Source of the DNA: Roseimicrobium gellanilyticum | GTDB taxonomy: Bacteria; Verrucomicrobiota; Verrucomicrobiia; Verrucomicrobiales; Verrucomicrobiaceae | NCBI RefSeq assembly: GCF_003315205.1 | Contig: NZ_QNRR01000007.1 | Coordinates: 62,001-126,000, forward strand | DNA length: 64,000 nucleotides | Direction: 5' to 3' | Shown here: piece after piece, positions 5,153 through 21,249 of the stretch | Layout of the letters: the number at the start of each line of letters is the position of its first letter | How positions within the stretch are numbered: the first letter of the stretch is position 1 | The notes under the pieces: model-generated | Told to the model about the DNA's origin: nothing | The model's input: the letters and a program-made list of their open reading frames with translations, nothing else | Databases searched by the model: none | Position numbers and translations under genes: made by a program

Positions 5153-5166
5153 GAGGGGCGACTTTC

Positions 5167-6282
5167 TTAATACCTGGCGGCAATCTTTTCCTTCACATAT
5201 CCCTGGGGCCAGGCGTAGAGCGCGCGGCGGGAGAAGAAGATGCCGTCCTTGCGTTCAGCATGCATGTTGTCTGTGAAGAGTTTCAGGAGGATGGCGCCCG
5301 CCGTGAGTTCATCCTGGTTGAAGATGCCGATGACACGGTCCAGTTCCTCGTTGGCGGCTTTGAGATCGCCCTTGAGCTTCGACCTGTCAGGCTTGAGCAA
5401 TGCCGCAGGGTTGGTGGTGGCGAGCTCGTAGAACCGGTTGATGTCTGCTGCCGAGAGGGGAACCCAGTCGCTCGTCTTTTTGCCGGCGGGATCTTCGGGA
5501 TCCTTGGAGCCGATGCGTTCCGGGTGGAGCAGGGTGGTCATCACGTACGGCAGGCCGCCTGCCAGATAGAGCCGGGAGCAGTTTTGCATGCCGGGCTTGT
5601 TGCGGATCTGGCCCTGCAGCGGTGCCAGAAGCTCTTCGCCAGCCAGCTTCATCGCTACCGCCTTGAAGTCTTCACCGTTTTGCTTGAGCTTGGTCACCTC
5701 CTTGGAGAAGGTGCCGGTGCCCATTTGCAGCGCGTACGTCTCGAAGGTCGCGGGAGGCTCATCGAGATAGGCGCCCTTCGAGTTGCCGCTCCCGATGTCA
5801 AGCACGACCACTTCATTCTTGCCATAACGGTGGGGTGGCACGATGCCCTGGAAGACATAGCGGGACTCGGTGGGCGCATCGATGCTCTGCAACTCGATAC
5901 CCTTCACCTGCTTGCCTTCCAGCTTGGCTTTCACTTCCGCGGGAATCCCGCTGCTCATCACCACATAGATCTGATTTTCGGGCATGTGATATTTCCCGAT
6001 CATGGAGCTTTTGATGTTCAGCACTTCCTGGGCGACCTGGGGTGCGGTGTCTCCATCATAGGGATTCTTGTTCTTCGGCTTGAATTCCTCAATGGTGAAA
6101 GGCGGCAGGAGGAGCTTGTTGGCGTCCAATCCCTTGTCTTCCACCACGATGGCCTTGATGCCCTTGGAGCCAAGCTCGATGACGCCGAAGCATTTCTCAG
6201 GTGGGGGAAGGGTCTGCGCCTGCGCGGCCTGGGTAAGAATGGCCAGGCAGAATACGCCGGCCGTGATGCACGTTGATTTCAT
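5167..6282 (-). CDS. Secreted Ppx/GppA-like actin-fold protein
   Basis: The 371-residue protein has a signal peptide (about 1-22, ending AQA), which is unusual for this family. The mature part shows the first phosphate loop as VIELGSKGIKAIV (around 34-46) and the second as VVLDIGSGNSKGAYLD, the pattern of Ppx/GppA phosphatases in the actin/hexokinase/Hsp70 superfamily. In known members the first loop starts with Asp; here it is Glu. A cytosolic nucleotide or polyphosphate substrate is unlikely outside the inner membrane, so the role is open. It is the last gene of the kinase cluster. The start at 6282 follows a CACCTCCACC leader. Confidence 0.7.
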   Translation of the reverse strand: MKSTCITAGVFCLAILTQAAQAQTLPPPEKCFGVIELGSKGIKAIVVEDKGLDANKLLLPPFTIEEFKPKNKNPYDGDTAPQVAQEVLNIKSSMIGKYHMPENQIYVVMSSGIPAEVKAKLEGKQVKGIELQSIDAPTESRYVFQGIVPPHRYGKNEVVVLDIGSGNSKGAYLDEPPATFETYALQMGTGTFSKEVTKLKQNGEDFKAVAMKLAGEELLAPLQGQIRNKPGMQNCSRLYLAGGLPYVMTTLLHPERIGSKDPEDPAGKKTSDWVPLSAADINRFYELATTNPAALLKPDRSKLKGDLKAANEELDRVIGIFNQDELTAGAILLKLFTDNMHAERKDGIFFSRRALYAWPQGYVKEKIAARY

Positions 6283-6361
6283 GGTGGAGGTGATGATGTG
6301 GTTTCTTGTTTTTGTGTTCAATCCTGGTTGTCTGGATGAAAATGAGGACCTGCTTTTCTCG

Positions 6362-8872
6362 TCACGGTTCCAAGACAATCCGGAACCCAGTTTCGGCTGC
6401 CTCAGAGGCAGCAAAGGTTTGCCTCCAGGCTGAGGTGAAATACATGAGCTTGTTTCGTTCGATGTCGGCCTTGGCCTCAGGTGTTGTTGCCTGACTGGAA
6501 TCCCACGGGCGGGTCATAAACGAACCTCCCCGCATCAGGATGCTGTCCGCACCCGAGTTCTGGTCGGTGCACATTTCCAGCACATTGCCGCCGAGGTCGT
6601 AGAAGCCAAAGGGGTTGGCGCGATACTTCCCCACATCACAAACCTTGTGTGAGGCATAGTTTCCCAAGGATTCCAGCGCCTCTCCGGTTGTCTCTCCCCA
6701 GGGGAATACCTTGCGGTATCGCTCGTTATCCTTCTTATCTTTCCACGGCATGGCCGCGGGCTCTTTGAGATCCGCCATGCTGCTCCATTCCTGGTCCGTG
6801 GGGAGGTGGTAGTTGCGCCCTTCCAGTGCACTTAGTTTGAGGCAAAAGTTTTTGGCGAGCCTGGGTTCTGCTACGGTGACAGGTTCCTCGGGAGAACCTG
6901 AGATTTTGTAATCGGGAATGATCTGTCCGTAGTCCGACTTCCGAGTCTCGTAGATGCACCCCAGCATCGTCCGCACCGTCACCACACTGCCATCAGGCGC
7001 GAGGTCGACCACGGTGAAGGGCACAAACTTCATGCCCAAAGAATTGATAAAGGGATTCTCGAAGCTCCACGGGCCAGAACTGTCCCTGGGTTTTGGTTTG
7101 GGCACGTCCTGTCCCACGCCCATGAGGCCGAGATCAAAAATCTTCCTGTCGCCCGGTGCATTGCTGGAGATGTGCAGCGAGGCCTCCCGTGGACCAGCTT
7201 CAGCGGGCATGAAGCGGATGCTCAGTGTCCCGGTGGAGCCCGGGGCAATGCTGCGGCTCGTTCCATTGGAGCGGACGAAGTATTCCTTCGCAGCGGGCCC
7301 ATCCAGGTCGGTATAGGACAGCACCTGCAGCTCCGCCTGGCCCGTGTTTCGGATGGTCAGGTCCAGGATGGACTCGGTTCCGACCGTGATGTTGCCAAAC
7401 TTGAGGATGCTTCCTCCATCCGCCAGCATCGTGCCCACAGGTTGCTCCAGGGAGATGTCCGGTGTTTTGATGGGAGGCTCGGGTACGGCACGCGGCGGCG
7501 CTCCGATGCCGCTCACGATGATGTCAAAGGGACGGTCACGGTCGGAGGAGTTGCTCGCCAGGTGCAGCGTCGCGGTCCGGATTCCTGCTTCGCGGGGCGT
7601 AAAGCTCACGATGAAATTCGTGTCCTCCTGGGGAGGCAGGGGAGCGCTGCTGAGGCGGGACACGGAGAACTCATCTGCACCATCGTGCGCGAGTGCCAGG
7701 CCTTCGAGTTCAGCTTGGCCCACGTTCTTGACCACTACCGTTCTTGTCGAGGTCATGCCGATGGCGGACTCCCCGAAGTCGACCGCGCCTTTGCCATGTT
7801 TCAGGGTGCGGCCCAGGGGATACTCGACTGCCATCACCGGCCCGCGGCTGGCCTGTTCGGATGACTGGGGTGTCTGGGTGAACCAAAGGAGTGAGCTTCC
7901 GCCGAGGACGGCGCATGAGGCAAAGGCGGCGCCGATCTTACCCCAGGGTGTCGTCGATGGCGTGGGTGGCAGGGGCGGCCGGACATACAGGGCCTTTTCC
8001 CAGGCGGCACAAGTCTGCCACCTGTCCTGGGCACGGCGCTGCAGTGCTTTGTCAATCGCGGCCAGAAAGACCGTGCTGTATTCGCGGAGATCGGGATGGT
8101 GCGCCAGTTTTACCAGGGGATCATTCTCGTGCCGGTCCGTCGCCCACGGAGGGTCTGTGCGCATGAAAATCCGGTAGAGCACGGCTCCCAGGGCATAGAG
8201 ATCCGTCCATGGGCCTTGTCTACCGTTGGTCTGATACTGCTCGATGGGGCCATAGCCCGCCGTGACTATGGCGCTGATATTGGAGGTCTTCAGCCCGGTC
8301 ATCATGCGGGCGTTGCCGAAGTCGATCAGGACCGGCAACTTGGACTTCCTGTCCATGCGGATGTTCTCAGGCTTCAAGTCCCGGTGCATCACGCCCCCTT
8401 CATGCACGAGGGCGAGCGCTGATAGCAGTGTCAGCGTGAAGGTGCGCAGGAAGTCTTCGCTGGGCCGGGCATGCTTGTTGAGCCAGGCCTCCAGGTTGTC
8501 CCCATCAATGTACGCCATCACCAGGTAGGCCGTGCCATTGTCCTCAAAGAAGTCGTACACTGGAACGATGGACGGGTGCTGCAGGCTGGCCAGGGTCTTC
8601 GCCTCGTTCAGGAAGGAGCGTCTCGCCCACTCCAACGACTCTTCGTTCTTCGGGCCGCCCCTGGCCACAATCCTCACCCCGTCCCGGGCTCGCGCGGCGA
8701 AATCAAACGGCAGCATTTCCTTGATGGCAACGTGACGCTCGAGTTGATGATCGTAGGCCAGGTAAGTAAGGCCAAAGTTTCCATGACCCAGGAGTTCCTG
8801 GAGCTCGTAATTCCGTTCGCCAAGTGTCAGGCGGTATCCTTTTGGCAGAGCATAGATGTGTTCGGAGGCCAT
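6362..8872 (-). CDS. Transmembrane Ser/Thr kinase with ASH and FGE-like domains
   Basis: The 836-residue protein begins with a Ser/Thr kinase domain (about 20-295): glycine loop GHGNFG, Lys51 in VAIKE, HRDLKPEN at 163-170 and DFG at 184-186, so it should be active. A transmembrane helix lies at about 312-330. Two beta-sandwich domains of the ASH/choice-of-anchor D type follow (about 350-460 and 475-590; each has an FGxxxxG start and a KNVGQAEL or RNTGQAEL strand). The C-terminal part (about 600-836) is FGE-sulfatase-like, with LPTDQEW, GFYDLGGNVLEM, RGGSF and TGFRIV. The catalytic cysteines of true FGE are absent after RGGSF, so this part is probably a ligand- or cell-wall-sensing module. Confidence 0.88.
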   Translation of the reverse strand: MASEHIYALPKGYRLTLGERNYELQELLGHGNFGLTYLAYDHQLERHVAIKEMLPFDFAARARDGVRIVARGGPKNEESLEWARRSFLNEAKTLASLQHPSIVPVYDFFEDNGTAYLVMAYIDGDNLEAWLNKHARPSEDFLRTFTLTLLSALALVHEGGVMHRDLKPENIRMDRKSKLPVLIDFGNARMMTGLKTSNISAIVTAGYGPIEQYQTNGRQGPWTDLYALGAVLYRIFMRTDPPWATDRHENDPLVKLAHHPDLREYSTVFLAAIDKALQRRAQDRWQTCAAWEKALYVRPPLPPTPSTTPWGKIGAAFASCAVLGGSSLLWFTQTPQSSEQASRGPVMAVEYPLGRTLKHGKGAVDFGESAIGMTSTRTVVVKNVGQAELEGLALAHDGADEFSVSRLSSAPLPPQEDTNFIVSFTPREAGIRTATLHLASNSSDRDRPFDIIVSGIGAPPRAVPEPPIKTPDISLEQPVGTMLADGGSILKFGNITVGTESILDLTIRNTGQAELQVLSYTDLDGPAAKEYFVRSNGTSRSIAPGSTGTLSIRFMPAEAGPREASLHISSNAPGDRKIFDLGLMGVGQDVPKPKPRDSSGPWSFENPFINSLGMKFVPFTVVDLAPDGSVVTVRTMLGCIYETRKSDYGQIIPDYKISGSPEEPVTVAEPRLAKNFCLKLSALEGRNYHLPTDQEWSSMADLKEPAAMPWKDKKDNERYRKVFPWGETTGEALESLGNYASHKVCDVGKYRANPFGFYDLGGNVLEMCTDQNSGADSILMRGGSFMTRPWDSSQATTPEAKADIERNKLMYFTSAWRQTFAASEAAETGFRIVLEP

Positions 8873-9050
8873 GGGAGCAGGGACAGCGGGTCAGAAACGG
8901 AGGAGGTGCATCTTCAAAGGTCTACTGCGCGTCCGGGTTCCATACTGACAGTTGAGTGATCATTTTTTTGTTTGAACGAGATGGTGATGGAATGGAGGAA
9001 ATGGGCGGGACATCGCTTTCGCCGGTGAGTCCTTGCCGCTTCGGCGCCGC

Positions 9051-11294
9051 TCAGGAATGTGGCGTGGACGGCATCGAGCCTTCTGCTTCGAATACTTCAG
9101 GCGGGGCGCCTGCGGTCACCTCCCCGGAGGAAAAGTTCAACACGCCGGCATTCTTCGTTTCGATCTCCTTCGGGGCTGGGTTCCCGTCCTTGGTGACAGG
9201 CGGCGTGGGGACTGGGTTTCGCGCCTCCTCTTTCTTTTCCTCTTCCTTCTTCGGCGGCGAAGGTGACGGCGAAGGCTTCGGTTCCTTTGCTTTGGCCTTC
9301 TCCTTTTCCTCGGTCGACTTGTCTCCCTCCTTCTTAGGCGCAGTAGGAGGCGTACCTTTGGGAGCTTCCCTTGCAGAAGGCGGATTGGGTTTTGGACTTG
9401 GATTCGAAGGAGGAGTCGGCGGTGTCCCCGCCGTTGGGGACGCAGGCGTCGTTGGCGAAGTAGAAGACGAAGGGGGCGCGGGAGGAGGCTCGGTCTTGGG
9501 TTTGTCTGTACTGTCGGCGAGCTCGTTCGGAGGCGTTGAGGCCGAGTTCTCCGCCGACTTCACGTACACGAGGCGGAATCCCAGGTGGTGCTTCTTCTCA
9601 TCATGCCGGATGACGGACCACTTCTCGCGCATGTTCATGTCCTGGTACATGGTGGCGAGTGCGGCCAGATTATGCAGTGTTTCCTCGTCCCCTGGGGCAG
9701 TATCGAAGTGGGAGCCCAGCATCGCGAAGTCTTTGAACTCCTGCGGTGACGGCTGATTGCGATTGGGCGAGAGCCCCACCATTTCTGCGACATTGCCCAC
9801 ATAGTCCGACACCGCGAAGGGCTGATCCATGGTGCGATCGATCTGGTCACCGGGCTGGATTTTGCCCGAGCCCACGTTCCCAAAATCCTCCGGCCTCTTC
9901 TTCTCCATGCCCCAGGGATAGGTCCATTGCAGATCGGGACCCCGTCCGGACGCAATCCATTCCATGGCCTCGGGCAGGCGATAGTGCCACTTCTCTCCCG
10001 CTCCCCGTTCGGCGATGGCCGCCTGGTCCTTCTGCGTGAGAAGCCGTGCAAACTCCTGCGCCTCGTCGGGGGTGATGTCCGTGATCGGCTGAAGCTCCTC
10101 TCCGTCCTTGATGGTCCGCGGTTTGGGCGAGATCGCATTCCAATCCTCGCGTGTGACCTCGTACTTGGTCATGTAGAGGGTGGTCCCATCCTGCCGCTTC
10201 ACCGGGTGGAAGCGCATGCCCCTGAAGTTCACAAAGCCGACGTCGAGGGGTTTGCCGAGGTTCACGTCCCGGACCGCGTTCAGGTCTCCGACGACCGCCT
10301 TCTCGGGTTCCTGCTTGCGTTCCGGGGTTTCGTGTTCCTGCGGAGCCGGGGTGGGCGGTGGTTGTTGCACCACCACGGGGTCCGGGCGTGTCAGCAGGTA
10401 GGCTGCCACCGCAGCGAGCAGCAGTCCCGTCACCACGAGCAGCGCTGCGGCCACGGCCCGCTTCGGGAGCCGTGCGCTTGCTCCGGGTGAGGTATCTTTT
10501 GGCACCACGGCCGCCACCGTGAGATTGTCACCTTCGGGACCATTGGCTTCCGCAGCACGCGCGACGGCTTTTTTCAGGCGCGCTTCCAGGCCCCGGCTGT
10601 CTCCGGCGAGCATGTCCAGCATGACGCGTGGCGGGGTCCGCTCCCAGAAACCATCTGTGCACAGCACGAAGGCATCCGTGGGCGTGACTTCATCCGTCCC
10701 GTAAGTCGGCTCGCGATATTCCTTCGTGCCCAGGGACTGCAGCAGCCGCCCCTGGTCTGGATGCTCACCCATCTGCTCCTCGGACACTTCGCCTTGCTCG
10801 AAGAGAATCTGCACAACGGAATGATCTCGTGTGCGGGCTATCTGCTTGCCATTGCGGAAGCGATACAGCCGTGAGTCGCCCGAGTGAACCCAATGCGCTT
10901 CCGTGGGAGTCAGGTAGAGCGCCACAATGGTCGAAGCCGGCGCGCGCTTGTCACCCATACCTGCCAGGTCGGTGATCCTGCCGTGCGCCGCAGCGCTCAT
11001 CTTCAAGAGGTCGATCTTCGGCTCCGTGAGCACCCCATTGCGATTTCTCCAGAGTTCCTCCGCCGTCCGCACCACAATCGCGGAGGCCTCGTCACCATTG
11101 CGGCAGCCTCCCACGCCATCACAGACGACGATGAGCAGGGTGGACTCCGCGGGATTGGTGAAGAGCCAGCACGCATCCTGCTGCTCGCTGCGTCCACCTA
11201 TCTGTGGCTGGAGCGCAATTGCGCTCCATGGAGGTACGACGGCTCGGTGCGTGCCGGGCTTCTTGGCGGAGGGAGGTGGCGAGGTCTTTGGCAT
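9051..11294 (-). CDS. Transmembrane PP2C phosphatase with FGE-like domain
   Basis: Residues 24-265 form a PP2C/PPM phosphatase with the metal ligands visible in EQQDA (Asp40), VCDGVGG (Asp59), CTDGFWE and EGDNLTV. A transmembrane helix at about 279-302 leads to an FGE-sulfatase-like domain (about 352-610) with MTKYEVTREDW, YRLPEAMEWIA, DYVGNVAEM and LGFRLVYV, again without catalytic cysteines. The last 135 residues are rich in Pro, Lys and Glu and probably unstructured. The domain plan mirrors the kinase encoded next, with kinase replaced by phosphatase. It starts only 4 bases after the stop of the upstream kinase gene, so the two are likely co-translated. Confidence 0.88.
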   Translation of the reverse strand: MPKTSPPPSAKKPGTHRAVVPPWSAIALQPQIGGRSEQQDACWLFTNPAESTLLIVVCDGVGGCRNGDEASAIVVRTAEELWRNRNGVLTEPKIDLLKMSAAAHGRITDLAGMGDKRAPASTIVALYLTPTEAHWVHSGDSRLYRFRNGKQIARTRDHSVVQILFEQGEVSEEQMGEHPDQGRLLQSLGTKEYREPTYGTDEVTPTDAFVLCTDGFWERTPPRVMLDMLAGDSRGLEARLKKAVARAAEANGPEGDNLTVAAVVPKDTSPGASARLPKRAVAAALLVVTGLLLAAVAAYLLTRPDPVVVQQPPPTPAPQEHETPERKQEPEKAVVGDLNAVRDVNLGKPLDVGFVNFRGMRFHPVKRQDGTTLYMTKYEVTREDWNAISPKPRTIKDGEELQPITDITPDEAQEFARLLTQKDQAAIAERGAGEKWHYRLPEAMEWIASGRGPDLQWTYPWGMEKKRPEDFGNVGSGKIQPGDQIDRTMDQPFAVSDYVGNVAEMVGLSPNRNQPSPQEFKDFAMLGSHFDTAPGDEETLHNLAALATMYQDMNMREKWSVIRHDEKKHHLGFRLVYVKSAENSASTPPNELADSTDKPKTEPPPAPPSSSTSPTTPASPTAGTPPTPPSNPSPKPNPPSAREAPKGTPPTAPKKEGDKSTEEKEKAKAKEPKPSPSPSPPKKEEEKKEEARNPVPTPPVTKDGNPAPKEIETKNAGVLNFSSGEVTAGAPPEVFEAEGSMPSTPHS

Positions 11295-11298
11295 GGCT

Positions 11299-13287
11299 TC
11301 AATTTTTTACGACGATCACGATGACGGGCTCGTCCAGATCGGGGAAAACTTCGACGACAGGAGTACTGGCAAGCACGGCTTCCGCTGTTTCTTTGCCACC
11401 AGGGACCAGGATGATCTTGTCATCCGGCAGTTCAGAAACTTTCTTGCGGTTGGCTGCGTTCTGGAACAACCCGAACGCCATGTCCTCCGGATCGCGTGGT
11501 CCCTGGAGCTCAAAGTTCTCCCGGTCCTTCCGGATGATTTCCCTGACGGCAGCCAGCGGAGTGATGCCACGTGCCATCTGTTCTCTCGCAGTGGCACAGT
11601 CTGCCTCGGACAACCGGCAGCGATAACCGGCAGCGCGCGCGGTGACGATGCGCCGTGAGATAGAGGGGCTGCCGTGGCTGGCCTTCTCAATGCGCACCTC
11701 CCGCACCACCAGCCCAATGCGGCGGACACTGCTGCCAATCAATTGCCGCTCGTACGTGAAGATCTGGCGCATCTCCGCGGTATCAGTGGCAGGGTGATAG
11801 TTTACACAGGTGGAGCCGAGGTGGGTGAATCCTCCCACATCCGCCGCATACCGGGCTTCATCACGCGCCTCTTCTGCCATGAAGGCAGTGCGACTCATCT
11901 CCCGCAGATCCGCTGTTTCACCGGTGTCATTCACCGTCACGGACTCCGCATAGTTCTCTGCTTTGACACGCTGTTCGATCTCTTCCTTGAGGAATCGATC
12001 CATCTTCGCGGGAATCTCCTTGGGTGGCGGCATCGCAGCGCTGGCCACCGCATCGGTGGGAGGAGGTGTGGTGGGCTGCGCGCGGGTGGCAACCACCTGC
12101 GATTTCACTCTCTCATTCTCATTCTCGCTGGCGGCTGGCGGCTCACTGCCAGGCACCTTCTCCTGCGGATGGGGCTCCGGTGGTGTTACTGCCCCGGCCT
12201 TCGCGGTGGAAATGGGCGCCATGGCGATCTGGTGCAGCCCTGCGTCGGAAATCTTTCCGGTGACTTGCTCTTGGTGCTCGGGCTCTGCTGACATGCGGGC
12301 CGCGATCCACGCGCTCGTGAAAGCCAGCACCAGGCAGATGAAAATCGCCAGCACCCAGTTTGCGGTGTCCCCAGTCCTGCTCTTCACGTCCTTGGTGCGC
12401 ACAGATCCCTTGCGCAACAGCATCTTCCGCCATTGCGCGATGGACTTGGGCCGGCGATCCGCCTTCAAGGCCATCGCGGCATCAATCCCCTTGAGCAGGG
12501 CAGGGGAGTACCGCCCGCGGTAGGCGACGGCCAGCGGCATGTATTTGTCCTTCACGTTGCGCTCGCATGCGGGCTGGGGATCCTTCATGGTGATGGCTCT
12601 CACCAGCGTGGCTGCCGTGGCGTAGATGTCCGAGGCGGGCGTGAGTGGCTCCGTGGACGTGTACTGCTCAGGGGGGGAGTAGCCGTCCGCATGAAAAATG
12701 AAGGTGGACTTGCCATTGCGCTCGCCGTCAGGACGCGCAGCGCCGAAGTCCAGCAGGATGACCTCATTGCGCCGAGTGAGGTAGATGTTGTTCGGCTTGA
12801 CGTCGCGGTGCAGCAGGCGCGCCGCATGCACTGCCTCCAGCCCATCGAGCACTTGTGTCAGCACGGGCAGGAGATCCGCTTCGGAAGGGCGCCTGGGAAG
12901 TTTGCGCAGGTACTGGCTGAACGTCTGCCCATCCACATAGTTCATCACGATATACGAGGTGTTATTCTCCTCGAAGGAGGCCTGCACTGTCACGATGTTG
13001 GGATGCCGGAAGAGGGCCAGATGCTTCGCCTCATCCGTGAACTTGCGCAGCAGTCCCTTCCACTCCGCGACCAGCGAGGGCTCCATCGAAATGGGATATA
13101 CCGCGTGCCCCCGCCGGGTGACGGATTCGGTTCGGAACAGTTCTTTGATCGCCACCTTGTGGCCGAGCTTCGTGTCCGTCGCCAGGTAGGTGAAGGCGAA
13201 TCCGCCCTTGCCGAGACAGCGCTCGATGCGGAAGCGCCGCACCATGGTGCCAGCAGGCAGGGCGAAGTGGTGAGTCTGCAGGACCAT
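11299..13287 (-). CDS. Transmembrane Ser/Thr protein kinase
   Basis: The 662-residue protein carries a Ser/Thr kinase domain (about 18-290) with glycine loop GKGGFA, Lys48 in VAIKE, HRDVKPNN at 160-167 and DFG at 180-182. The segment GYSPPEQY follows the activation loop, as in the two other kinases here. A transmembrane helix spans about 311-330. The outer part has a low-complexity linker (about 335-430) and an unrecognised domain with VVREVRIEK, AAGYRCRLSEADCATAREQ and a hydrophobic end IIVVK-like tail (VIVIVVKN). The stop lies 9 bases from the start side of the neighbouring kinase gene, consistent with one operon. Confidence 0.87.
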   Translation of the reverse strand: MVLQTHHFALPAGTMVRRFRIERCLGKGGFAFTYLATDTKLGHKVAIKELFRTESVTRRGHAVYPISMEPSLVAEWKGLLRKFTDEAKHLALFRHPNIVTVQASFEENNTSYIVMNYVDGQTFSQYLRKLPRRPSEADLLPVLTQVLDGLEAVHAARLLHRDVKPNNIYLTRRNEVILLDFGAARPDGERNGKSTFIFHADGYSPPEQYTSTEPLTPASDIYATAATLVRAITMKDPQPACERNVKDKYMPLAVAYRGRYSPALLKGIDAAMALKADRRPKSIAQWRKMLLRKGSVRTKDVKSRTGDTANWVLAIFICLVLAFTSAWIAARMSAEPEHQEQVTGKISDAGLHQIAMAPISTAKAGAVTPPEPHPQEKVPGSEPPAASENENERVKSQVVATRAQPTTPPPTDAVASAAMPPPKEIPAKMDRFLKEEIEQRVKAENYAESVTVNDTGETADLREMSRTAFMAEEARDEARYAADVGGFTHLGSTCVNYHPATDTAEMRQIFTYERQLIGSSVRRIGLVVREVRIEKASHGSPSISRRIVTARAAGYRCRLSEADCATAREQMARGITPLAAVREIIRKDRENFELQGPRDPEDMAFGLFQNAANRKKVSELPDDKIILVPGGKETAEAVLASTPVVEVFPDLDEPVIVIVVKN

Positions 13288-13296
13288 GGCGGACAG

Positions 13297-14502: not shown

Positions 14503-14540
14503 GATGGAACCGTGGGAGAGCAGGAACAAAAGGGGACCGT

Positions 14541-15986
14541 CTAGAAGCGCCGGCGGAGCAAGGCGGTGACCTGGCCGAAGTCCATCCGGTCACCTTCCTT
14601 GAGCGCCTGGTCCCTGAAGGGGGCGGAGAGACGGATGTTGTTTACCTTCGTCCCATTGGAAGAATTCCGGTCCGCGACGAAGAGTGAGCCGCTCTTGAGC
14701 TCGAAATGCAGATGCTGGCGGGAAATACTGTCGTGCTTCACCGTCACTCCACTGAAGTCCGCGTTGCGACCCAGGATCACACGACCGCGTCCCTTGATGA
14801 AGTCCTCATCCGTGAGGCTGACCCGTTGGCGAAAGCCACCCTCGCCCGTGATTTCAAGCTCCCATACCACTCCTGATGAGGGATTCGAAAGTGCCGTGGC
14901 ATCCCCGTTTGTGCCCCCTGGCTTCTGATGATTTCCAGGCCGGCCCTGCCCGTTGTTCATGAACTCCTCCATCTTTTGCCTGAAGATGGATGTGGGCATG
15001 CTCATCGTGGCGGGACGACGCTTCGTCAGCAGCGTCAACCCCAGGCCGGCCGCCACGAGCAGTGCGGCAGATGCCAGGGCGATCAGGGCTTTCTGAAGCA
15101 TCGTGAGCTGGCCCGGATTCACGATGTTCACCTGACCGAATGGAACGTCGTGCTCGGAAAGGAACGCCGCGAGTTCCTTGGACGACATGGCAAACTGGAT
15201 CTGGTGCACAGCCTGCTGCCTGCCCTGGCCTACGACGCCCACCACGTACCCGGCACGGTCCAGCAGCGGACCGCCGCTGTTTCCGGGCGCGATGTCCACA
15301 TTGAATTCCACCGTTTCCACACTGCGGCCTTCGAGATCGGACTCCTGGCCCTTGTTGTCCACTTGCAGCAAGGCCCGGCGGGCGATACGGCGGACTCCGC
15401 CGGGAGGCGCCACGGAAGGTGCCGCAAACTGCGCCAGCGACTGGTTCTCCTCCATGTCCTGCGTGATGTCCACCCCCTTGGTCTTGAGTTCCGGCAGGGT
15501 CACTTTGTTCAACAGGATCTTTCCAAGGCCGATGGGCCGGGTGTCTGCGATGGCAGGAAAGCCCACCGATGAGACAATGGTGTTGCCACTGATGTCAGGA
15601 TTCGGCAGCGCGAGGTTCAAGGTCAGCGGGGAGGCGTTGATGCCCGAGCTCACCACGGCAAGATCCGCCTCCGGCAGCGTTTTCACCGATTTCGCCAGGT
15701 GAAGGCGGATGCGATCCTTGTTCTTGTGCAGGATGAAGATCATGTCCGCCCCTGCGACCACATGATTGTTCGTCACCACGTCACCGCGATCATTGATGAT
15801 GAAGCCAGAGCCCACACGTTCGAACGCAGGTGCGGTCGTCCGAACGCAAAGAAAGCGGACACAGGAGTCTTTGACTCGCTCGGTATCGAGTCCGTTTCCT
15901 TGATTGCAGCCGCTGGAGCCCAGCACTGCTCCGAATACACACAGGCGCACCAGGTGATGTTTTATACAGGCAAAGAAGGAGGTCAT
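14541..15986 (-). CDS. Trypsin-like serine protease with TM helix and FHA domain
   Basis: The 481-residue product has an N-terminal export signal with a possible lipidation Cys27 (SSGC). A trypsin-like S1C domain follows with a full catalytic triad: His75 in TNNHVV, Asp108 in EADLAVV and Ser237 in GNSGGP. There is no clear PDZ domain. A transmembrane helix (about 297-320) connects to a cytoplasmic FHA domain near residues 380-481, with ILGRN, SRQHLHF and DRNSSNGTKVN. The topology places the protease outside and the phosphothreonine reader inside, so phosphorylation could control or localise proteolysis. The gene lies between the VWA gene and a kinase gene. Confidence 0.85.
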   Translation of the reverse strand: MTSFFACIKHHLVRLCVFGAVLGSSGCNQGNGLDTERVKDSCVRFLCVRTTAPAFERVGSGFIINDRGDVVTNNHVVAGADMIFILHKNKDRIRLHLAKSVKTLPEADLAVVSSGINASPLTLNLALPNPDISGNTIVSSVGFPAIADTRPIGLGKILLNKVTLPELKTKGVDITQDMEENQSLAQFAAPSVAPPGGVRRIARRALLQVDNKGQESDLEGRSVETVEFNVDIAPGNSGGPLLDRAGYVVGVVGQGRQQAVHQIQFAMSSKELAAFLSEHDVPFGQVNIVNPGQLTMLQKALIALASAALLVAAGLGLTLLTKRRPATMSMPTSIFRQKMEEFMNNGQGRPGNHQKPGGTNGDATALSNPSSGVVWELEITGEGGFRQRVSLTDEDFIKGRGRVILGRNADFSGVTVKHDSISRQHLHFELKSGSLFVADRNSSNGTKVNNIRLSAPFRDQALKEGDRMDFGQVTALLRRRF

Positions 15987-16000
15987 GAATGTTGTTGGGG

Positions 16001-16822
16001 TCAGAGATTTGGCATGCCGAGAAACTGGCCGCGGTTTTCGCGGGCGAGCTGCATCAGGAAGTCCACGCAATAAGGTTGGGAGTTGTACTCACCGATGGCG
16101 ATGCAGTGGATTTCCTTCCTGCCTGCATTGCGGGATTTGATATCGGTCGTGATCTCACGGCAGACCATCTCACCCACGCGTTGGCCATCACTGGGCGCCC
16201 CATCCGTGATGAGGAAGATTGCTTCCGTGTCATCCATCATCGCCTGTCTCAGGGCGGGCCCCGTTGGCGTCGAGCCGTCTGTGGTTTTCAGGATGCTGGA
16301 TACAAAGCCCTTGGCAGCCTGCCGCTCGCGAGCATCGAGTTCCACCGGGGTGCTGCGCCACTTGGGCAGGTCCACCCGGACTCCGTCGGGTGCGTGAAAA
16401 CCCATCACCTGGAGGCGCTGACCAGGCTTCATGCCTTCAATGATGGTCTCGCACACGCTCATCACCACGGGTCGGTAGTCCTGGGCCTGCGGATTCTGCC
16501 GGATGTTGTGCATACTCCCCGAGAGATCGACCACCAGTGTGATGGACTTCGCATGCGTGACGATGCCAAAGAGCGCGAGCATGGAGCTCTTCGAGAGTTC
16601 CTTCTTCAATTGCTCGATTTCCTGCTTGGCTTGCTCGGTCTTTCTGGTCTGGTCCGCGAGCTTTGTCTCCACCACACTCGTGTCCGGGATGGGCGCGGAC
16701 TCCAGACGACCGAAGTATGGGATGAGGATGATCGAGATGACCATGAAGGCTCCCATGGCGGAGCAGAACAGGTCGATGGCCGCCAGGCTGAAGATGGTGA
16801 ATTCGCGTCTCGGTCGGCGCAT
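16001..16822 (-). CDS. VWA-domain protein with ExbD-like N-terminal membrane helix
   Basis: The 273-residue protein starts with a basic stretch and one membrane helix (about 12-37) that contains Asp17 in LAAIDLFCSAMGAF. This resembles the proton-path helix of ExbD/TolR/MotB and the FLDVICCGFGA helix of VWA proteins often paired with MotA/TolQ/ExbB proteins. A coiled coil (about 48-80) leads to a VWA domain with an intact metal site: DLSGS at 99-103, a Thr in STPTGPA and ITDGAPSD. VWA domains bind partner proteins through a bound metal ion. The ExbB-like gene three genes upstream is the likely partner. Confidence 0.82.
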   Translation of the reverse strand: MRRPRREFTIFSLAAIDLFCSAMGAFMVISIILIPYFGRLESAPIPDTSVVETKLADQTRKTEQAKQEIEQLKKELSKSSMLALFGIVTHAKSITLVVDLSGSMHNIRQNPQAQDYRPVVMSVCETIIEGMKPGQRLQVMGFHAPDGVRVDLPKWRSTPVELDARERQAAKGFVSSILKTTDGSTPTGPALRQAMMDDTEAIFLITDGAPSDGQRVGEMVCREITTDIKSRNAGRKEIHCIAIGEYNSQPYCVDFLMQLARENRGQFLGMPNL

Positions 16823-16846
16823 GGGGACAAAGGGGCTGGAGGTTTA

Positions 16847-17584
16847 TCAGGGCGTGCTGGTGGCAGGGACACACTTCATCACCGTGACGGTCAGGTTGTC
16901 CTGGCCGTCCTTGCGTTCCGACTCCACGGCCTGCATGAGCTTCTCGGCGAGCTCGCCTGCCGCCAGGCCCGAATAGATTTCGAGCTTGGATCCAATCTGC
17001 GACAGCGGGATGGTATTCATGCCATCGCTGCAGCAGACGATGATGTCGCCTTCCATCAGCTGCACGACGTCTTCAGGAGCATCAATGCGGAAAATGCGTC
17101 CACCGGTGAGCGCCGAGGTGAGCACGGCGGAATCCGTGGATCCTTCGTCCACCGGGCTCACGGTGTGTTCTTCATTCAGCCGCAGCATCACCCCAGCCCG
17201 GTACAGGTACAGAGGTGAATCTCCCACGCTGACCCAGCGCAGCCGCTTGCCGTGGAGAAAGATGCCCACAAACGTGGTGCCCATCTCATCAGGCGCACCA
17301 CCCCGGCGGGCATTCTCCGCCGCGATATCGCTGTTCGCCAGGTGGAGCGCATCGAGCATGGCCTGGCGCATGTCCTGCCGGCGCACATCGAGCCGCTGTA
17401 GGAAGCACTCCACCGCCAGGGCACTGGCGACTTCGCCGCGCTCGTGCCCTCCCATGCCATCCGCCAGGGCCAGCAGGAGGGCTCCCTCAGGTCCGGATCC
17501 GAGAACACAGAAGCCATAGCTGTCCTCCTGGTTCTCCCGTACCCCGCGGACTTGCCTGCCGGCAAATGTGAGCTCTGCAATCAT
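16847..17584 (-). CDS. PP2C-type protein phosphatase
   Basis: The 245-residue protein is a single PP2C/PPM domain with all expected metal-binding motifs: RENQED (Asp21), ADGMGGH (Asp42), CCSDGMN and DGQDNLTV. It would be a soluble cytoplasmic phosphatase that removes phosphate from Ser and Thr. Its start codon overlaps the stop of the upstream FHA gene (TGATG at 17586-17582), so the two are probably translationally coupled. It is followed after 24 bases by the VWA gene. The size is normal for stand-alone PP2C enzymes of Stp/PrpC type. Confidence 0.9.
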   Translation of the reverse strand: MIAELTFAGRQVRGVRENQEDSYGFCVLGSGPEGALLLALADGMGGHERGEVASALAVECFLQRLDVRRQDMRQAMLDALHLANSDIAAENARRGGAPDEMGTTFVGIFLHGKRLRWVSVGDSPLYLYRAGVMLRLNEEHTVSPVDEGSTDSAVLTSALTGGRIFRIDAPEDVVQLMEGDIIVCCSDGMNTIPLSQIGSKLEIYSGLAAGELAEKLMQAVESERKDGQDNLTVTVMKCVPATSTP

Positions 17585-18162
17585 CACGCCTTTGCCTCTC
17601 CGCTGGTTCCCGTTGCTTCCGGTTCGTTCCAATCAAAGTCCGCACCGCAAAACGGGACGAAGCGCAATAGGGTGGCGCCAATCTTGATCAGGTCGCCATT
17701 CTTCAGCACCACGGCGGAATCGATGGCTTCGCCATTCACGCGTGTGGGATTGAGGCCCTCATCATTGGCCACCTTGAACTTGCGGGCTTCAGAATCGTAG
17801 AGGATCTTGGCGTGTTTATCACCAGTGATGCTGGTGTCCCCGAAGTTCAGCACAATCCGGTTTGTCAGATCGCGCCCTATGCTGCTCCAGCCGTAGCCCA
17901 CCTGCACCGATGTCCCTTTGCCAGGGCCCTGAACAATCACGAGCCATCCAGCCACCGCGTTGCGCGTATTGTCGAGGGAAGGAATGCCGAGGATCATTGT
18001 CCCGGGTTTCTTGGGCTGTGCCGGTGCAGGTGCTGGCGCCTGGTCCTGTTGGCCGTAGAGTATCGTGCCATCGGTGGAACTGCCCTCCATCTCGGATGGG
18101 GATCCCCAGGCAAGCTCACTACGGCTCACGATCTTGGTCTTCTTGTAGTCGGTATCGCTCAT
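17584..18162 (-). CDS. FHA-domain protein
   Basis: The 192-residue protein has a hydrophilic N-terminus of about 70 residues rich in Ser, Gln, Pro and Ala, with several Thr in KKTK and TDGT that could be kinase targets. The FHA domain follows (about 75-175), with SSIGRD, TGDKHAKI and the late NPTRVNGEA loop. The Thr-rich tail before an FHA domain recalls GarA/Fha-type switch proteins that are phosphorylated near the N-terminus and then bind their own FHA domain; this is inference. The gene is coupled to the downstream PP2C phosphatase by a TGATG overlap. Confidence 0.85.
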   Translation of the reverse strand: MSDTDYKKTKIVSRSELAWGSPSEMEGSSTDGTILYGQQDQAPAPAPAQPKKPGTMILGIPSLDNTRNAVAGWLVIVQGPGKGTSVQVGYGWSSIGRDLTNRIVLNFGDTSITGDKHAKILYDSEARKFKVANDEGLNPTRVNGEAIDSAVVLKNGDLIKIGATLLRFVPFCGADFDWNEPEATGTSGEAKA

Positions 18163-18202
18163 GATGTGGTACGGTTGTGTTGAAATAGAAGAATGAGGAG
18201 GG

Positions 18203-18976
18203 TCACTGGGGCTGGTTGCCGGAGTGCAGACGGTTGATGAGATGGTCCAGGCAGTACTGGCCGGAACGGTTCACAATCTCCTCCTCACGCCCCTGGATGA
18301 TGTGCATCGCAAACAGGAGGACGGCGGTCATCATCAGCGCGAGGAAGGTGCCGTCATACGCCACGGCCAGGGCCTTGGTGACGTTCATCAAGAGACTGGG
18401 ATCGGTAGTGGCGGAGTGGCCCGTGACGTCGAGCGCATCGCCAATGCCCTTCACGGTGCCAATGAATCCAAGACTTGGAATCAGCCACATGAGATACCGG
18501 AGCATGTTGTAGCCGAGGTCCACCTCATGCATGAACAGGTCGAGGTTTGTATTGAGCAGGCTCTGCGCCTGATCGGTTGATCGGGACGACTGGAACATCA
18601 GGATGATGCGCTGGATCAACCGGGGCAGGAAGTATCCCTGGGAGGCTGGCCGGCTGATCCGGGCATAGACCGGCTCGAGATTCTTCGGCGTGAGCATCGC
18701 CGCATGTGCGTCCTCTGAAAGGTAGCGCAGCTTGAGCTGCCGGCCCTCACGCGAGCTCACAATGAACCGGTACAGGATTTCCCCCAACCCCAGGAAGAAC
18801 ACCACCCACAGTACATGCTGCACGGTGAATGGATAAGCATCGACACCCCGGTTCTGTAGCAGACGAGCGGCATACCCACCGGGGTCCAGGGTGAAATGCA
18901 GGATGACGATCAGCAGCAGTGCTGCAACCAGCATGCTGGCGGTGATTGTCAGATGGATGACCGTTCCGGATTTCAT
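18203..18976 (-). CDS. MotA/TolQ/ExbB-type proton channel family protein
   Basis: The 257-residue protein has four predicted membrane helices (about 11-30, 53-72, 158-178 and 200-226) with a cytoplasmic region between the second and third. The third helix reads IPSLGFIGTVKGIGDAL, a match to the GLLGTVxG motif of MotA/TolQ/ExbB proteins, and the fourth contains the small-residue and Thr pattern GTFLALMMTA. Such proteins form pentameric channels with a one-helix partner that carries a proton-binding Asp. No separate ExbD gene is present; the VWA protein at 16001-16822 has a suitable helix. The start follows a CAACATCACC leader. Confidence 0.85.
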   Translation of the reverse strand: MKSGTVIHLTITASMLVAALLLIVILHFTLDPGGYAARLLQNRGVDAYPFTVQHVLWVVFFLGLGEILYRFIVSSREGRQLKLRYLSEDAHAAMLTPKNLEPVYARISRPASQGYFLPRLIQRIILMFQSSRSTDQAQSLLNTNLDLFMHEVDLGYNMLRYLMWLIPSLGFIGTVKGIGDALDVTGHSATTDPSLLMNVTKALAVAYDGTFLALMMTAVLLFAMHIIQGREEEIVNRSGQYCLDHLINRLHSGNQPQ

Positions 18977-19019
18977 GGTGATGTTGCTCTATCAATTCTG
19001 GGTTCCGCGCGTTCAGTGC

Positions 19020-19388
19020 TCAGCGGTATTCGATTTGTCCGGTTTCTGGATTTCTGTAGGGCTGGAGGCTGGTCCTGGCCGGGACGGGCGACTGGATGCG
19101 CGCAGCAGGGGGAGTGCGACGCGGCAGCATCTTGAGCAGGTCCTTCATTTGCACGACGTTCATGCCGAAGCGCACCGCGTCCTCCTTCCGCACAACCTCC
19201 TGCTTGATCCGCTCCCAGTTGCCCTGACGCCGGATGAAGGTGCCGTTGGAACTGCCGCAGTCCACGAGGTAGAAATTTCTCCCGTCTGAACTCACCGTCA
19301 GTTCCGCGTGACACTTGCTCACGCTCTGCTCCGGATCCTCAAGGAGGATGTCGGCATCCTTTCTGCCGATGGTGAATACTTCGATCAT
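19020..19388 (-). CDS. Small FHA-domain protein
   Basis: The 122-residue protein is an almost bare FHA domain: FTIGRKD at the start, VSKCHAEL and DCGSSNGTF. After the domain comes a basic, proline-rich tail of about 30 residues ending in PETGQIEYR. The start codon overlaps the stop of the upstream VWA-TM-FHA gene by four bases (ATGA at 19388-19385), a sign of translational coupling. It would be a soluble phosphothreonine reader or adaptor for the membrane proteins of the cluster. The closest neighbour downstream is the ExbB-like gene. Confidence 0.85.
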   Translation of the reverse strand: MIEVFTIGRKDADILLEDPEQSVSKCHAELTVSSDGRNFYLVDCGSSNGTFIRRQGNWERIKQEVVRKEDAVRFGMNVVQMKDLLKMLPRRTPPAARIQSPVPARTSLQPYRNPETGQIEYR

Positions 19389-21040
19389 ACTCTGGAATCC
19401 TGGCTGGAGTTGTTGAGCACGAGCATAAGGCGGACTTTCCCCAGCTGAATCTTGTCACCGTCCTTGAGCACGCAGTGCTCCACGGCCTTTCCATTCACAC
19501 GCGTCTGGTTGGCGGATCTCAGGTCCGTGATTTCCAGGCTGCGGTCGCTGCGCCGGTGAATATTGGCGTGATGGACGGAGACGCTGTCATCCAGGAAGCG
19601 CAGGGTGCTGTCTGAACTGCGACCAATGGTGAAGTTCCCCTTCGTAATCTCATGACGCCTCACAGGAGAGGGAGTCGCCGAATCATCGAACTCTTCCAGC
19701 CATCCAATCACGAGCTGGGTTTTGCTTTCATGATCGAACCCACCACCCGAGATGATATCGCGACCCTCGTCAGTCACCGTTGGACCCGTAGTGACACGGC
19801 CGCCATCGGTGGGATCTACGATGGTAATCTCCTCTTCTTCGCGCGGCCGGGTAAGCTTGAAGATCAGGAAACTCAGCAATCCCATCACCAGCACTCCACC
19901 GCCTACCAGTGCGGGCAGGAACCAGGGTTGGTCGGTGAGCCCTTTGACGGGAGTGGCATCGGGAATCGGCGGAGGCACTGGTTTACCCTCATCGTGATCA
20001 TTCTCGTGAACCGATGGATCTTTCTTCTCGGCAGGATCCTCCTTGGGCGGTGCGGGAGGCACAGGCAATTGGGGCACCTCGATCTCCTTTTCCACGGCGA
20101 TCTTTCCTCCGGAGTTGAGCTCAAGATTGATCACCATCGGCTGCTTCCCGGAGGGAGCATTCTTCAGATCCACCGTGACCACTGCCGCCGACTTGAGCCT
20201 TCCGTGAAGTTCCTGAATCGTGCGTGGAGTCGCATTGGTGGGCACGCCCTTGATGGAAAGGACCGTTTCAATGAACCCACCGCCTGTCTCCTTCGCCACG
20301 CGGCGCAGTTCCTGCCAGTCTGACATGCCGGCCTCCGTTTTGCTGAAGCCAATGGCAAACACCACGATCCCTTCCTTCCTGGCTGCTGCGATGAGGGCAT
20401 CCGCAGAGCTCTTTTGCTTGTCCGTATCCGTGGATTTTCCGGATGAGAGAATGTAGAGCACCTTTCTCTCGCCACCCTGCTGAAGCTTGAACTGGTCAAT
20501 CGCCTCCAGCGCGCACCGGTAGATTTCGGAGGTGGCCTCGGGCTTGTCGTTGGCCACACCCTCCAGGATCTTCGACCTGCCATCCTTCGTCGGCAGCGCA
20601 AAGGCAAGATTCTTGTGCTGGCTGCCGATGGTGCCGATGCCGACCTGGAAGAGCGTTTGCGCTTTGTCATCGGCAAGCAGGGCATCCGTCATCTCCTGCA
20701 CGGCGGCCGTTTCTTCCTTCACATAGGACACTCCCTTTTGCTCGCTGACATCCAGGAGGAAGTAGATCAAGGTCTTTCCCTCATTCGCCGGGCTCAGGGT
20801 CACGGGTGCCTCCTTGCCTCCGACCGTCGCCTGGGCACCCGGTGCCTTCTTGAAGTCATCAATGTTGGTCAGGCGGACCGTGAGCTTCGCCTCCGCTGTT
20901 TGCGGCGGGCCGCTGGAAGGCGTCGTCACGATCTCGACCACGTCCCGATTGATCAGGAAATCGGCCCCGTGGACTGGGCTCGCCACGAGAGCCGCGCCCA
21001 GGAAAGTCGCGAGTAAACGGCTGATGTGCGTAATTTTCAT
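19385..21040 (-). CDS. Exported VWA-TM-FHA protein
   Basis: This 551-residue protein has a signal peptide (about 1-26) and an extracytoplasmic VWA-like domain (about 88-290). Its metal site begins DVSEQ (97-101), so the usual second serine is replaced by Gln, and metal binding may be weak or lost. A Pro/Glu-rich linker (about 325-365) precedes a transmembrane helix (about 373-395). The cytoplasmic part ends in an FHA domain (about 455-545) with TIGRSSD, SVHHANI and LRSANQTRVNGKA. It is the first gene of the core cluster, and its upstream region (21041-21249) is the likely promoter site. Confidence 0.85.
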   Translation of the reverse strand: MKITHISRLLATFLGAALVASPVHGADFLINRDVVEIVTTPSSGPPQTAEAKLTVRLTNIDDFKKAPGAQATVGGKEAPVTLSPANEGKTLIYFLLDVSEQKGVSYVKEETAAVQEMTDALLADDKAQTLFQVGIGTIGSQHKNLAFALPTKDGRSKILEGVANDKPEATSEIYRCALEAIDQFKLQQGGERKVLYILSSGKSTDTDKQKSSADALIAAARKEGIVVFAIGFSKTEAGMSDWQELRRVAKETGGGFIETVLSIKGVPTNATPRTIQELHGRLKSAAVVTVDLKNAPSGKQPMVINLELNSGGKIAVEKEIEVPQLPVPPAPPKEDPAEKKDPSVHENDHDEGKPVPPPIPDATPVKGLTDQPWFLPALVGGGVLVMGLLSFLIFKLTRPREEEEITIVDPTDGGRVTTGPTVTDEGRDIISGGGFDHESKTQLVIGWLEEFDDSATPSPVRRHEITKGNFTIGRSSDSTLRFLDDSVSVHHANIHRRSDRSLEITDLRSANQTRVNGKAVEHCVLKDGDKIQLGKVRLMLVLNNSSQDSRV

Positions 21041-21249
21041 ACTTTCAAATGCGCTGAGAATTCGTGGTACGTATGGAGCGGAAAGTTTGAACTGCTCCTA
21101 TTGGGACAAGTGTTAGCAAGAACAAAGAAAAATGTTTTTTTCTAAGTAATAATGCTTAACGTGTGAACATTCTGCCACACAACGGTTGGGGACAATGCCG
21201 TCGGCGGGTCGATGTTCCGGGACCGGCGCAGGAAGGAAGGCGGGTGGAA
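21041..21249 (-). promoter_or_regulatory. AT-rich probable promoter region of the kinase cluster
   Basis: This 209-base gap precedes the first core gene. The part at 21110-21165 is much richer in A and T than its surroundings and includes long A and T runs. Promoter-like TTG hexamers can be found on the minus strand but none has a convincing partner at the right spacing, so no exact promoter is proposed. Confidence 0.3.

Follow-up and report, generated by a model that had tools for sequence, protein, structure and literature searches.

A candidate TolQ-type motor within a recurring kinase, phosphatase and FHA gene cluster of Roseimicrobium gellanilyticum

Introduction

The known 5:2 motors (flagellar, Tol, Ton, Zorya and gliding) are, to our knowledge, gated by assembly or by their targets and not by a dedicated eukaryotic-like kinase circuit. 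Here we analyse a gene cluster in a 64,000-nucleotide (nt) stretch of Roseimicrobium gellanilyticum DNA (contig NZ_QNRR01000007.1, positions 62,001 to 126,000 of the forward strand; hereafter the window), in which genes for Ser/Thr kinases, PP2C phosphatases, FHA proteins and VWA proteins accompany the gene of a TolQ-fold protein. We propose that the cluster encodes a trans-envelope machine in which Ser/Thr phosphorylation controls the activity or assembly of a predicted 5:2-type motor driven by ions, a reading in which we place slightly better than even confidence.

The closest described systems are transmembrane (TM)-vWA proteins encoded beside tolQ-like genes, with no tolR and with a conserved Asp in the TM segment, as set out in the accessible text of PMC12204202 (Mol Biol Evol 2025). 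There, the vWA genes occur predominantly as heterologous pairs, in Proteobacteria and Verrucomicrobia; the function of the first vWA family is given as unknown, gliding is suggested for the other vWA transducer family, and a conserved pore Thr is stated for the TolQ-like motor family. The same accessible text has no match for kinase, phosph, protease or trypsin, and its sole FHA match is FhaC. The accessible text of PMC12505986 contains neither VWA nor FHA, and that of PMC2754498, which names such genes separately only, was set aside as not relevant. Our literature search, which covered few subscription papers and no bioRxiv preprints, returned no paper joining the motor to FHA, PP2C and kinase genes. 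The motor core (TolQ-like plus TM-vWA) has been predicted before, and the phosphorylation module around it was not found in print.

Results

A twelve-gene cluster combines phosphorylation enzymes with a candidate motor

An earlier note, made from the letters of the window, had described twelve minus-strand genes with kinase, phosphatase, FHA, VWA, ExbB-like, protease and Ppx/GppA-like products at 5167-21040. Our check recovered 12 minus-strand open reading frames (ORFs) at these coordinates, and Pfam agrees with the named domains: Pkinase in three proteins (E 5.6e-31 to 4.5e-36), PP2C_2 in two, FHA in four, VWA in two, MotA_ExbB (2e-8, above cut-off), Trypsin_2 together with FHA, and Ppx-GppA (22.4 bits, the cut-off being 27). 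FGE-sulfatase matches one kinase and one PP2C, and ASH repeats are found on that same kinase. The catalytic motifs of the kinases, PP2Cs and protease are present (in two of the three kinases the Lys was identified by eye). For four genes the likely start lies downstream of the ORF start (PP2C 17584, protease-FHA 15986, the kinase STK3 14502 and Ppx 6282). In order of transcription, and with the identity to the copy in genome G013, the nearest relative, where given, the genes are:

19385..21040, minus strand: VWA-TM-FHA protein of 551 aa, TM 375-393 (Pfam VWA 4.3e-12, FHA 3.8e-15; 57-63% identity in G013)
19020..19388, minus strand: small soluble FHA protein directly upstream of the candidate motor A gene, ending ...RNPETGQIEYR (Pfam FHA 6e-14)
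18203..18976, minus strand: motor A subunit candidate with TolQ/ExbB fold and an extra N-terminal TM (Pfam MotA_ExbB 2e-8; AlphaFold; VIA)
17584..18162, minus strand: FHA protein whose N-terminal tail has three T-x-h-h motifs (Pfam FHA 1.2e-8)
16847..17584, minus strand: soluble PP2C phosphatase, 245 aa from ATG 17584, metal-site motifs intact (Pfam PP2C_2 4.8e-14; 76% in G013)
16001..16822, minus strand: motor B subunit candidate, TM with Asp17, coiled coil 48-78 and VWA with metal ion-dependent adhesion site (MIDAS) residues (AlphaFold, fold matches)
14541..15986, minus strand: trypsin-like protease-TM-FHA protein, 481 aa from ATG 15986, TM 329-347 in ORF numbering, catalytic motifs intact (Trypsin_2 5.6e-14, FHA 3.5e-12)
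13297..14502, minus strand: Ser/Thr kinase with C-terminal TM (Pkinase 8e-32; HRDIKPEN, DFG)
11299..13287, minus strand: Ser/Thr kinase-TM-extracytoplasmic region, TM 312-330 (Pkinase 5.6e-31; HRDVKPNN, DFG)
9051..11294, minus strand: PP2C-TM-FGE-like domain-Pro-rich tail, TM 280-298 (PP2C_2 7e-11, FGE-sulfatase 1.2e-6)
6362..8872, minus strand: Ser/Thr kinase-TM-ASH repeats-FGE-like, weak TM 313-331 (Pkinase 4.5e-36, ASH 3.6e-17, FGE-sulfatase 6e-14)
5167..6282, minus strand: Ppx/GppA-like protein with apparent signal peptide, 371 aa from ATG 6282 (Ppx-GppA 9.4e-5, below cut-off)

In the VWA-TM-FHA protein, the VWA would lie outside the cytoplasm and the FHA inside it.

The cluster encodes candidates for both motor subunits

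The AlphaFold model of the A-subunit candidate (predicted local distance difference test (pLDDT) score 93) aligns with TolQ (8vlw_B) in VIA at Z 15.4 with a root mean square deviation of 3.0 over 208 residues, and with ExbB at Z ~14; relative to TolQ it has an additional N-terminal TM helix. The corresponding profile matches TolQ at E 0.0056. Thr residues T174 and T210 are invariant in 30/30 rows of the alignment and are aligned with Thr residues of TolQ, which we take to be its pore Thr. In the model, the protein thus has the TolQ/ExbB/MotA fold that marks the A subunit of 5:2 motors.

Pfam detects no ExbD, TolR or MotB family among the cluster proteins, which leaves the protein at 16001-16822 as the sole B-subunit candidate. 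Its model (AlphaFold, pLDDT 86) contains a short N-terminus, a TM helix (residues 10-37), a coiled coil (48-78) and a VWA domain, which scores 23.8 bits in Pfam, below the 27-bit cut-off, and is supported by fold search. The most conserved part of the family is the TM segment, with a motif of about R-E-x-x-I-F-S-x-S-A-L-D-L-F-A-S-A-x-G-A-F-I. In an alignment of 26 rows, D17, G24, F26, P35 and the MIDAS D99 and D207 do not vary. Across the VWA part, 79 B ORFs (the window and L041 uncounted) can be aligned. The TM Asp is found in 101/101 homologues whose N-terminus is covered by the profile (98 by pattern, 3 by eye), a count tempered by the fact that the profile that selected them itself includes the Asp. 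The protein has the one N-terminal TM segment with an Asp that is expected of a B subunit; its following domain would be placed on the periplasmic side and the Asp would bind the ion.

Taken together, sequences and models predict that the TolQ-fold protein and the TM-VWA protein form a 5:2-type motor. The earlier note had seen no known output machine in the cluster; this view has to be revised, since the second VWA protein looks like a motor B subunit and the motor itself is then the predicted output. Its suggestion of a self-contained envelope system with a proton-driven part stands as a well-supported prediction.

FHA, B-subunit and kinase genes recur around the motor gene

A three-row ExbB alignment was used to scan 84,980 bacterial and archaeal species, each represented by one genome. 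This yielded 163 confirmed relatives, and we retained the best 80. An FHA gene lies within 1.5 kb of the ExbB gene in 78 of the 80 loci, partial contigs included, and in 64 of them it is directly upstream on the same strand. The same profiles found FHA within 1.5 kb in 0/27 MotA/ExbB control loci from the genome's relatives and in 0/28 from the phylum (L122-L149; L121 of genome G243 was omitted, being a member). Full 7-kb flanks are available for 44 of the 80 loci, which contain FHA (43), a B protein with the TM motif, VWA or not (40), a Ser/Thr kinase (35), FGE-like domains (28), trypsin (26) and PP2C (23); FHA, B protein and kinase occur jointly in 33.

The gene order is recognisable across phyla as FHA-ExbB-FHA-PP2C, with the B protein, trypsin-FHA and kinase nearby; many gammaproteobacteria have two B genes-FHA-ExbB-trypsin-FHA-kinase-FGE. 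The 2.5-Mb genome G243, of the same order as the window, encodes a compact version made up of a B protein with the TM motif and without a VWA match, FHA, ExbB, protease-FHA, FHA and PP2C. Its protease is a reprolysin-like metalloprotease fused to FHA (Pfam 22.6 bits, cut-off 22.4); this fusion, kept despite a different protease fold, argues that the coupling of a protease-FHA protein to the motor is selected. G013 has all 12 genes in unchanged order (~44-80% identity), which, together with the subsets recurring in other phyla, argues that the cluster is not a product of chance.

The small FHA proteins beside the motor gene have conserved Thr-bearing tails

In the window, the C-terminal tail of the FHA protein encoded directly upstream of ExbB reads ...PYRNPETGQIEYR. 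We compared 68 upstream tails, one per source with an FHA ORF close upstream of ExbB (L041, from the same genome as L035, was dropped), and found [RK]-x3/4-T-G-x-[IV] in 58 of them, against a mean of 0.31 and a maximum of 2 in shuffled tails. TG-x-[IV] occurs in the C-tails of 8/142 other FHA ORFs at the same loci. A Thr with Ile or Val at +3 is a form favoured by FHA domains.

The FHA protein encoded downstream carries its motifs in the N-terminal tail. In 33 such tails (L041 omitted, together with L042, L051 and L070, where the ORF is not a small FHA protein) we counted 43 T-x-h-h motifs, whereas shuffled tails gave 5.6 (maximum 13); 26 of the 33 contain one or more. S-x-h-h occurs once and A-x-h-h twice. 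An element like MPVYRGPDGKII, which resembles the upstream tail minus its Thr, starts 19 of the 33. From these patterns we infer docking of the two small FHA proteins through tails of related type, with the Thr repeats serving as targets of the kinases.

Several observations speak against a phosphorylation-gated motor

A number of results weigh against the proposed machine. Foldseek, run with the A model against the PDB, returned one match below E 0.001 (ExbB 5zfp_B, 8.2e-4), and in the VIA list a designed nanopore (Z 11.4) stands above ZorA (11.1) and PomA (10.1); because this unrelated protein scores higher, only the TolQ and ExbB rows are telling and ZorA and PomA add little. A profile of the isolated B TM segment (61 positions) found no motor protein in the PDB, its best match being CydC at E 0.26. 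Since it reaches no solved motor subunit, the B-subunit assignment rests on topology, the Asp and co-occurrence. Nine short B proteins (L042, L048, L060, L069, L083, L097, L118, L161 and L174) have no Pfam VWA at E 0.1, and the full-length B protein of L088, scanned alongside, gives VWA_3 at 7e-6; the system can thus do without the VWA, and the TM helix with its Asp is what is kept.

As for recurrence, the 80 loci are the most similar of the 163, so the gene-set frequencies are probably upper estimates for the family. The profiles were trained on these loci, and near-copies among them are not independent. The control loci are from Verrucomicrobiota only, their scans could miss divergent FHA domains because the profiles were trained on the family, and B-profile matches occur in 9/27 and 4/28 of them as well. 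PP2C is missing from 21 of the 44 full-flank loci, trypsin from 18 and the kinase from 9, such that no regulatory part is universal.

Of the 68 upstream tails, 10 are without TGx[IV]: two have Ser, G013 has Asn and L037 Ala, three have TGEP, and three (L058, L080 and L097) show no Thr form. Because its Thr is not universal, the tail is equally compatible with a docking motif and a phosphosite, and we rejected the Thr as a proven phosphosite as too strong a claim. In the downstream N-tails G-x-h-h is likewise enriched (23 versus 5.7 in shuffles), an excess that probably stems from the DG-K-I-I element.

A static scaffold, in which the TolQ-fold and TM-VWA proteins form a platform for kinases, phosphatases and FHA proteins and ion flow is irrelevant, would fit a B-TM profile with no detectable relation to solved MotB, ExbD or TolR and a PDB motor match confined to the A subunit. 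Such a platform would have no need of a TM Asp, which is nevertheless found in every covered homologue, and it would sit poorly with two invariant A-subunit Thr aligned with those of TolQ. We consider the scaffold unlikely and retain the predicted motor as our working reading.

The unit probably extends beyond the twelve genes

The intergenic distances among the first ten genes (21040 to 9051) range from -4 to +43 nt, and gaps of 178 nt and then 79 nt precede the last two (the kinase STK1 and Ppx). A single transcript for the 12-gene cluster is plausible from this spacing. Terminator-like sites on the minus strand within 3000-22500 lie at 21836, 6540, 4842 and 3772; a promoter scan gave 1 site versus 4.1 expected and was uninformative. 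The G013 copy has an extra kinase ORF and two small ORFs interspersed among the cluster genes, and it keeps in the same place three genes that flank the cluster in the window:

21250..21870, minus strand: 206-aa protein with N-terminal hydrophobic segment 5-23, upstream of the cluster (no Pfam match; 55% identity in G013)
4240..5079, minus strand: sigma-factor-like protein with a weak region-2 match, following the cluster (Sigma70_r2 0.033, below cut-off; 62% in G013)
3731..4213, minus strand: fifth FHA protein, 160 aa from ATG 4213, following in turn (FHA 2.9e-12; 56% in G013)

As G013 retains these flanking genes, we estimate a real unit of ~14-15 genes (3731-21870), probably larger than the 12 genes of the original description.

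The Ppx/GppA-like protein at the end of the cluster is 68% identical over 416 aa in G013, and profile matches to it were obtained in 2 of the 83 scanned sources (the window and L035). The Ppx/GppA family is normally cytoplasmic, and the window protein is an exported-looking member. Adjoining the cluster on the plus strand, an ORF of 4352 aa at 24666-37724 contains seven PATR repeats and, below cut-off, a PEP-CTERM-like end; it is a candidate giant surface protein.

The motor is patchily distributed and was possibly transferred

The window belongs to a genome of 7.93 Mb in 32 contigs (99.7% complete; G000). Among 57 genomes including this one, close ExbB relatives were otherwise found in G013 (70%) and G039 (40%) only; in G001, a genome of the same genus in a single 8-Mb contig, the search gave no more than a 29% match, which is of another type. 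A strong B motif (E <1e-15) was found in just two of 387 Verrucomicrobiota genomes, G000 and G243, and six others match weakly. The earlier note had proposed a search for conserved co-occurrence in this phylum: in relatives with the motor gene the genes are indeed clustered and not scattered, but the set is rare within Verrucomicrobiota.

Versions of the cluster are also found far from this phylum. The rows of the ExbB tree, from which L035 and profile hits above 1e-20 were omitted, carry nine phylum labels taken from submitters' titles, five of them with one row; 63/83 rows are Pseudomonadota and many are metagenome bins. A Rhizobium megaplasmid, conjugative according to PLSDB, has PP2C, FHA and kinase genes on one strand and PP2C, FHA, ExbB, B, VWA-FHA and kinase genes on the other; a trypsin match was not found in this version. 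On the tree all phylum labels require 9 changes, the least possible being 8, so the phyla are fairly well clustered; Pseudomonadota, with 6 changes, do not form one group. We therefore rejected the tree as proof of transfer; it is decisive neither way. The absence from close relatives and the plasmid copy do suggest transfer. On our best reading the motor is patchily distributed and its VWA part replaceable.

Patchy distribution, the lack of a close ExbB relative in G001, the copy on a predicted conjugative Rhizobium megaplasmid and the combination of a motor with accessory enzymes would also fit a Zorya-like anti-phage defence system, in which the motor senses envelope damage and relays it inwards. 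Against this, a PADLOC scan of ten cluster proteins (all but FHA122 and Ppx) gave no match for the ExbB-like, TM-VWA, small PP2C, FHA192 and VWA-FHA proteins, and the matches listed for the kinases, PP2C-FGE and protease-FHA look like generic ones to kinase, phosphatase and protease domains. Pfam finds no nuclease or helicase family in the cluster. Phage records contain no match to the system, and of 12 pattern matches in IMG/VR none was confirmed. The nameable recurrent neighbours are secreted proteins, a TonB system and ordinary enzymes. We regard defence as improbable.

Neighbouring genes and a sister motor

Beside 17 gammaproteobacterial loci (L100:4387-7593 and 16 others) the opposite strand encodes an apparently secreted TPR-CHAT protein of ~1050 aa. 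We rejected it as a caspase-like effector: the His and Cys positions that we take to be catalytic are not conserved in 14 aligned long copies, which makes the protein pseudo-caspase-like. In L061 (14643-15764) and 15 other gammaproteobacterial loci, the gene after kinase-FGE encodes a Gln/Glu-rich protein of ~380 aa that is apparently secreted; the one copy scanned has no Pfam match. In five gammaproteobacterial loci (L057, L061, L084, L090 and L098) the region ~5-6 kb upstream of the B genes, at ~95-2081, holds an ordinary ExbB-ExbD-TonB set, with one member per cluster confirmed by Pfam (MotA_ExbB, ExbD, TonB_C). The Hyphomicrobiales loci L060, L069, L078 and L174 have a gap of ~5-6 kb between the B gene and the VWA-FHA gene, which in L060, L069 and L078 is occupied by one long ORF (1344-2068 aa).

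The other ExbB-like loci of Verrucomicrobiota look like different motors (FHA within 1.5 kb in none of the 28 control loci). A sister motor, which is not a member of the family, occurs at L162:5905-10469 (genome G268), at L165:5025-8998 (G237) and also in L166. It comprises an ExbB-like protein followed by tandem TM-VWA-like proteins with another TM motif (FSLSFLDxxCCGFGA in L162 and L165). We read an actin/Hsp70-like protein in between in L162 and L165, for which Pfam gave no support in L162, the one scanned. The sister-motor stretches contain no kinase or FHA profile match.

Discussion

We suggest the following mechanism. The TolQ-fold protein (18203-18976) would form a pentameric stator around a dimeric rotor of the TM-coiled-coil-VWA protein (16001-16822), whose Asp17 would bind the driving ion in the pore and whose VWA would be carried into the periplasm and turned there by ion flow. 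Membrane kinases with extracytoplasmic ASH and FGE domains may sense the state of the envelope and, with the PP2C phosphatases, would determine how far the Thr sites are phosphorylated in the tails of both small FHA proteins encoded beside the motor gene. The FHA proteins, including the FHA ends of the VWA-TM-FHA and protease-TM-FHA proteins, would then come together at the motor's cytoplasmic face, where five-fold symmetry would offer five docking sites for FHA tails, and would recruit the protease and VWA partners. The result would be mechanical work or proteolysis in the periplasm, to which the sigma-like protein might add a transcriptional branch. Candidate roles are envelope maintenance, surface motility and defence, and the evidence favours none of them.

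More tentatively, and with rather less than even confidence, we propose a widespread, unrecognised class of phosphorylation-gated rotary motors with FHA docking through Thr tails and tethered proteases, which would turn kinase signals into periplasmic work. The kinase-phosphatase-FHA set that recurs with the motor under nine phylum labels would provide a control system for newly predicted VWA motors, and many orphan bacterial Ser/Thr kinases with FGE or ASH domains would gain a target. The reading supplies named residues for experiments, namely the TM Asp and the tail Thr. Such tests are practical because named sources hold versions of the system, among them Nitrincola alkalisediminis JCM 19317 (L097), Methylobacterium variabile DSM 16961 (L083), Thiomicrospira microaerophila ASL8-2 (L058) and Rhizobium leguminosarum BT01.

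The TPH-vWA motors, the second vWA family of PMC12204202, resemble the cluster most closely, as judged from the accessible text of that paper alone; we do not claim that our system is distinct from its Idiomarina set. Both have a TolQ-like gene beside a TM-vWA gene, no TolR or ExbD and a TM Asp, both are found in Pseudomonadota and Verrucomicrobiota, and tandem TM-vWA pairs are present in many of our loci. Unlike those motors, the window has one B gene and no pair, some loci have a B protein lacking the VWA, and the motor is embedded in a kinase, PP2C, FHA and protease set.

With TolQRA, ExbBD-TonB, MotAB and ZorAB the cluster has in common the A-subunit fold (TolQ being best), the TM Asp of the partner and the invariant A-subunit Thr. 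It differs in that the periplasmic domain of the partner is a VWA and not a PG (peptidoglycan)-binding OmpA-like or a TolR-like domain, in its extra N-terminal TM relative to TolQ, and in its phosphorylation-signalling genes. Zorya combines a ZorB with an OmpA-like PG-binding domain with ZorC and ZorD or with ZorE; in the cluster the VWA takes the place of the OmpA-like domain, and no Zorya is among the PADLOC matches listed for the ten proteins.

The presence of kinase, PP2C and VWA genes close to each other recalls the TerY-type triad, and equally the threonine-phosphorylation pathway of type VI secretion. A linkage of kinase, PP2C and standalone vWA is moreover reported for GTPase systems in the accessible text of PMC7159879 (eLife 2020). 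The TerY triad has a standalone soluble VWA, whereas both VWA proteins of the cluster have a TM segment, one of them a motor-type helix. The earlier note had stated that the set has no type VI or Ter genes. Judged by the sheath gene TssC, this holds for type VI secretion, and we rejected that system: the TssC/VipB family was not found in the whole genome G000, in a search whose control was positive in E. coli. For Ter it holds within the cluster, but the genome does encode TerD homologues, on contig C4 only and away from the cluster. A TerY or type VI pathway is, in our view, very improbable indeed.

A gliding, adhesion or surface-motility machine would find its model in the Agl-Glt system of Myxococcus, where a TolQ-like motor works with an FHA membrane protein and to which a VWA adhesin (CglB) belongs. 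Three kinds of parts are thus common to both, AglR binds GltG in a two-hybrid assay according to the accessible text of PMC3169522, a precedent for a TolQ-like motor protein contacting an FHA membrane protein, and PMC12204202 proposes gliding for its other vWA transducer family. Agl-Glt, however, comprises the FHA-TM-TonB protein GltG and the TolR-like AglQ and AglS. Among the cluster proteins there is no TonB, ExbD or beta-barrel family, and the FHA domains are soluble or tied to VWA or protease; NCBIfam GltG matches cover the FHA part only and are below cut-off. We know of no kinases, PP2C or trypsin-FHA protease among the Glt parts. We hold a gliding function to be rather improbable, and prefer a phosphorylation-controlled envelope motor.

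For the proposed control of this motor the nearest parallel is offered by GarA, OdhI and FhaB. GarA and OdhI have a Thr-bearing N-terminal tail, as does the downstream FHA protein of the cluster, and NCBIfam gives weak matches to FhaB and OdhI, below cut-off. Unlike in those systems, the partner gene in the cluster is the motor gene.

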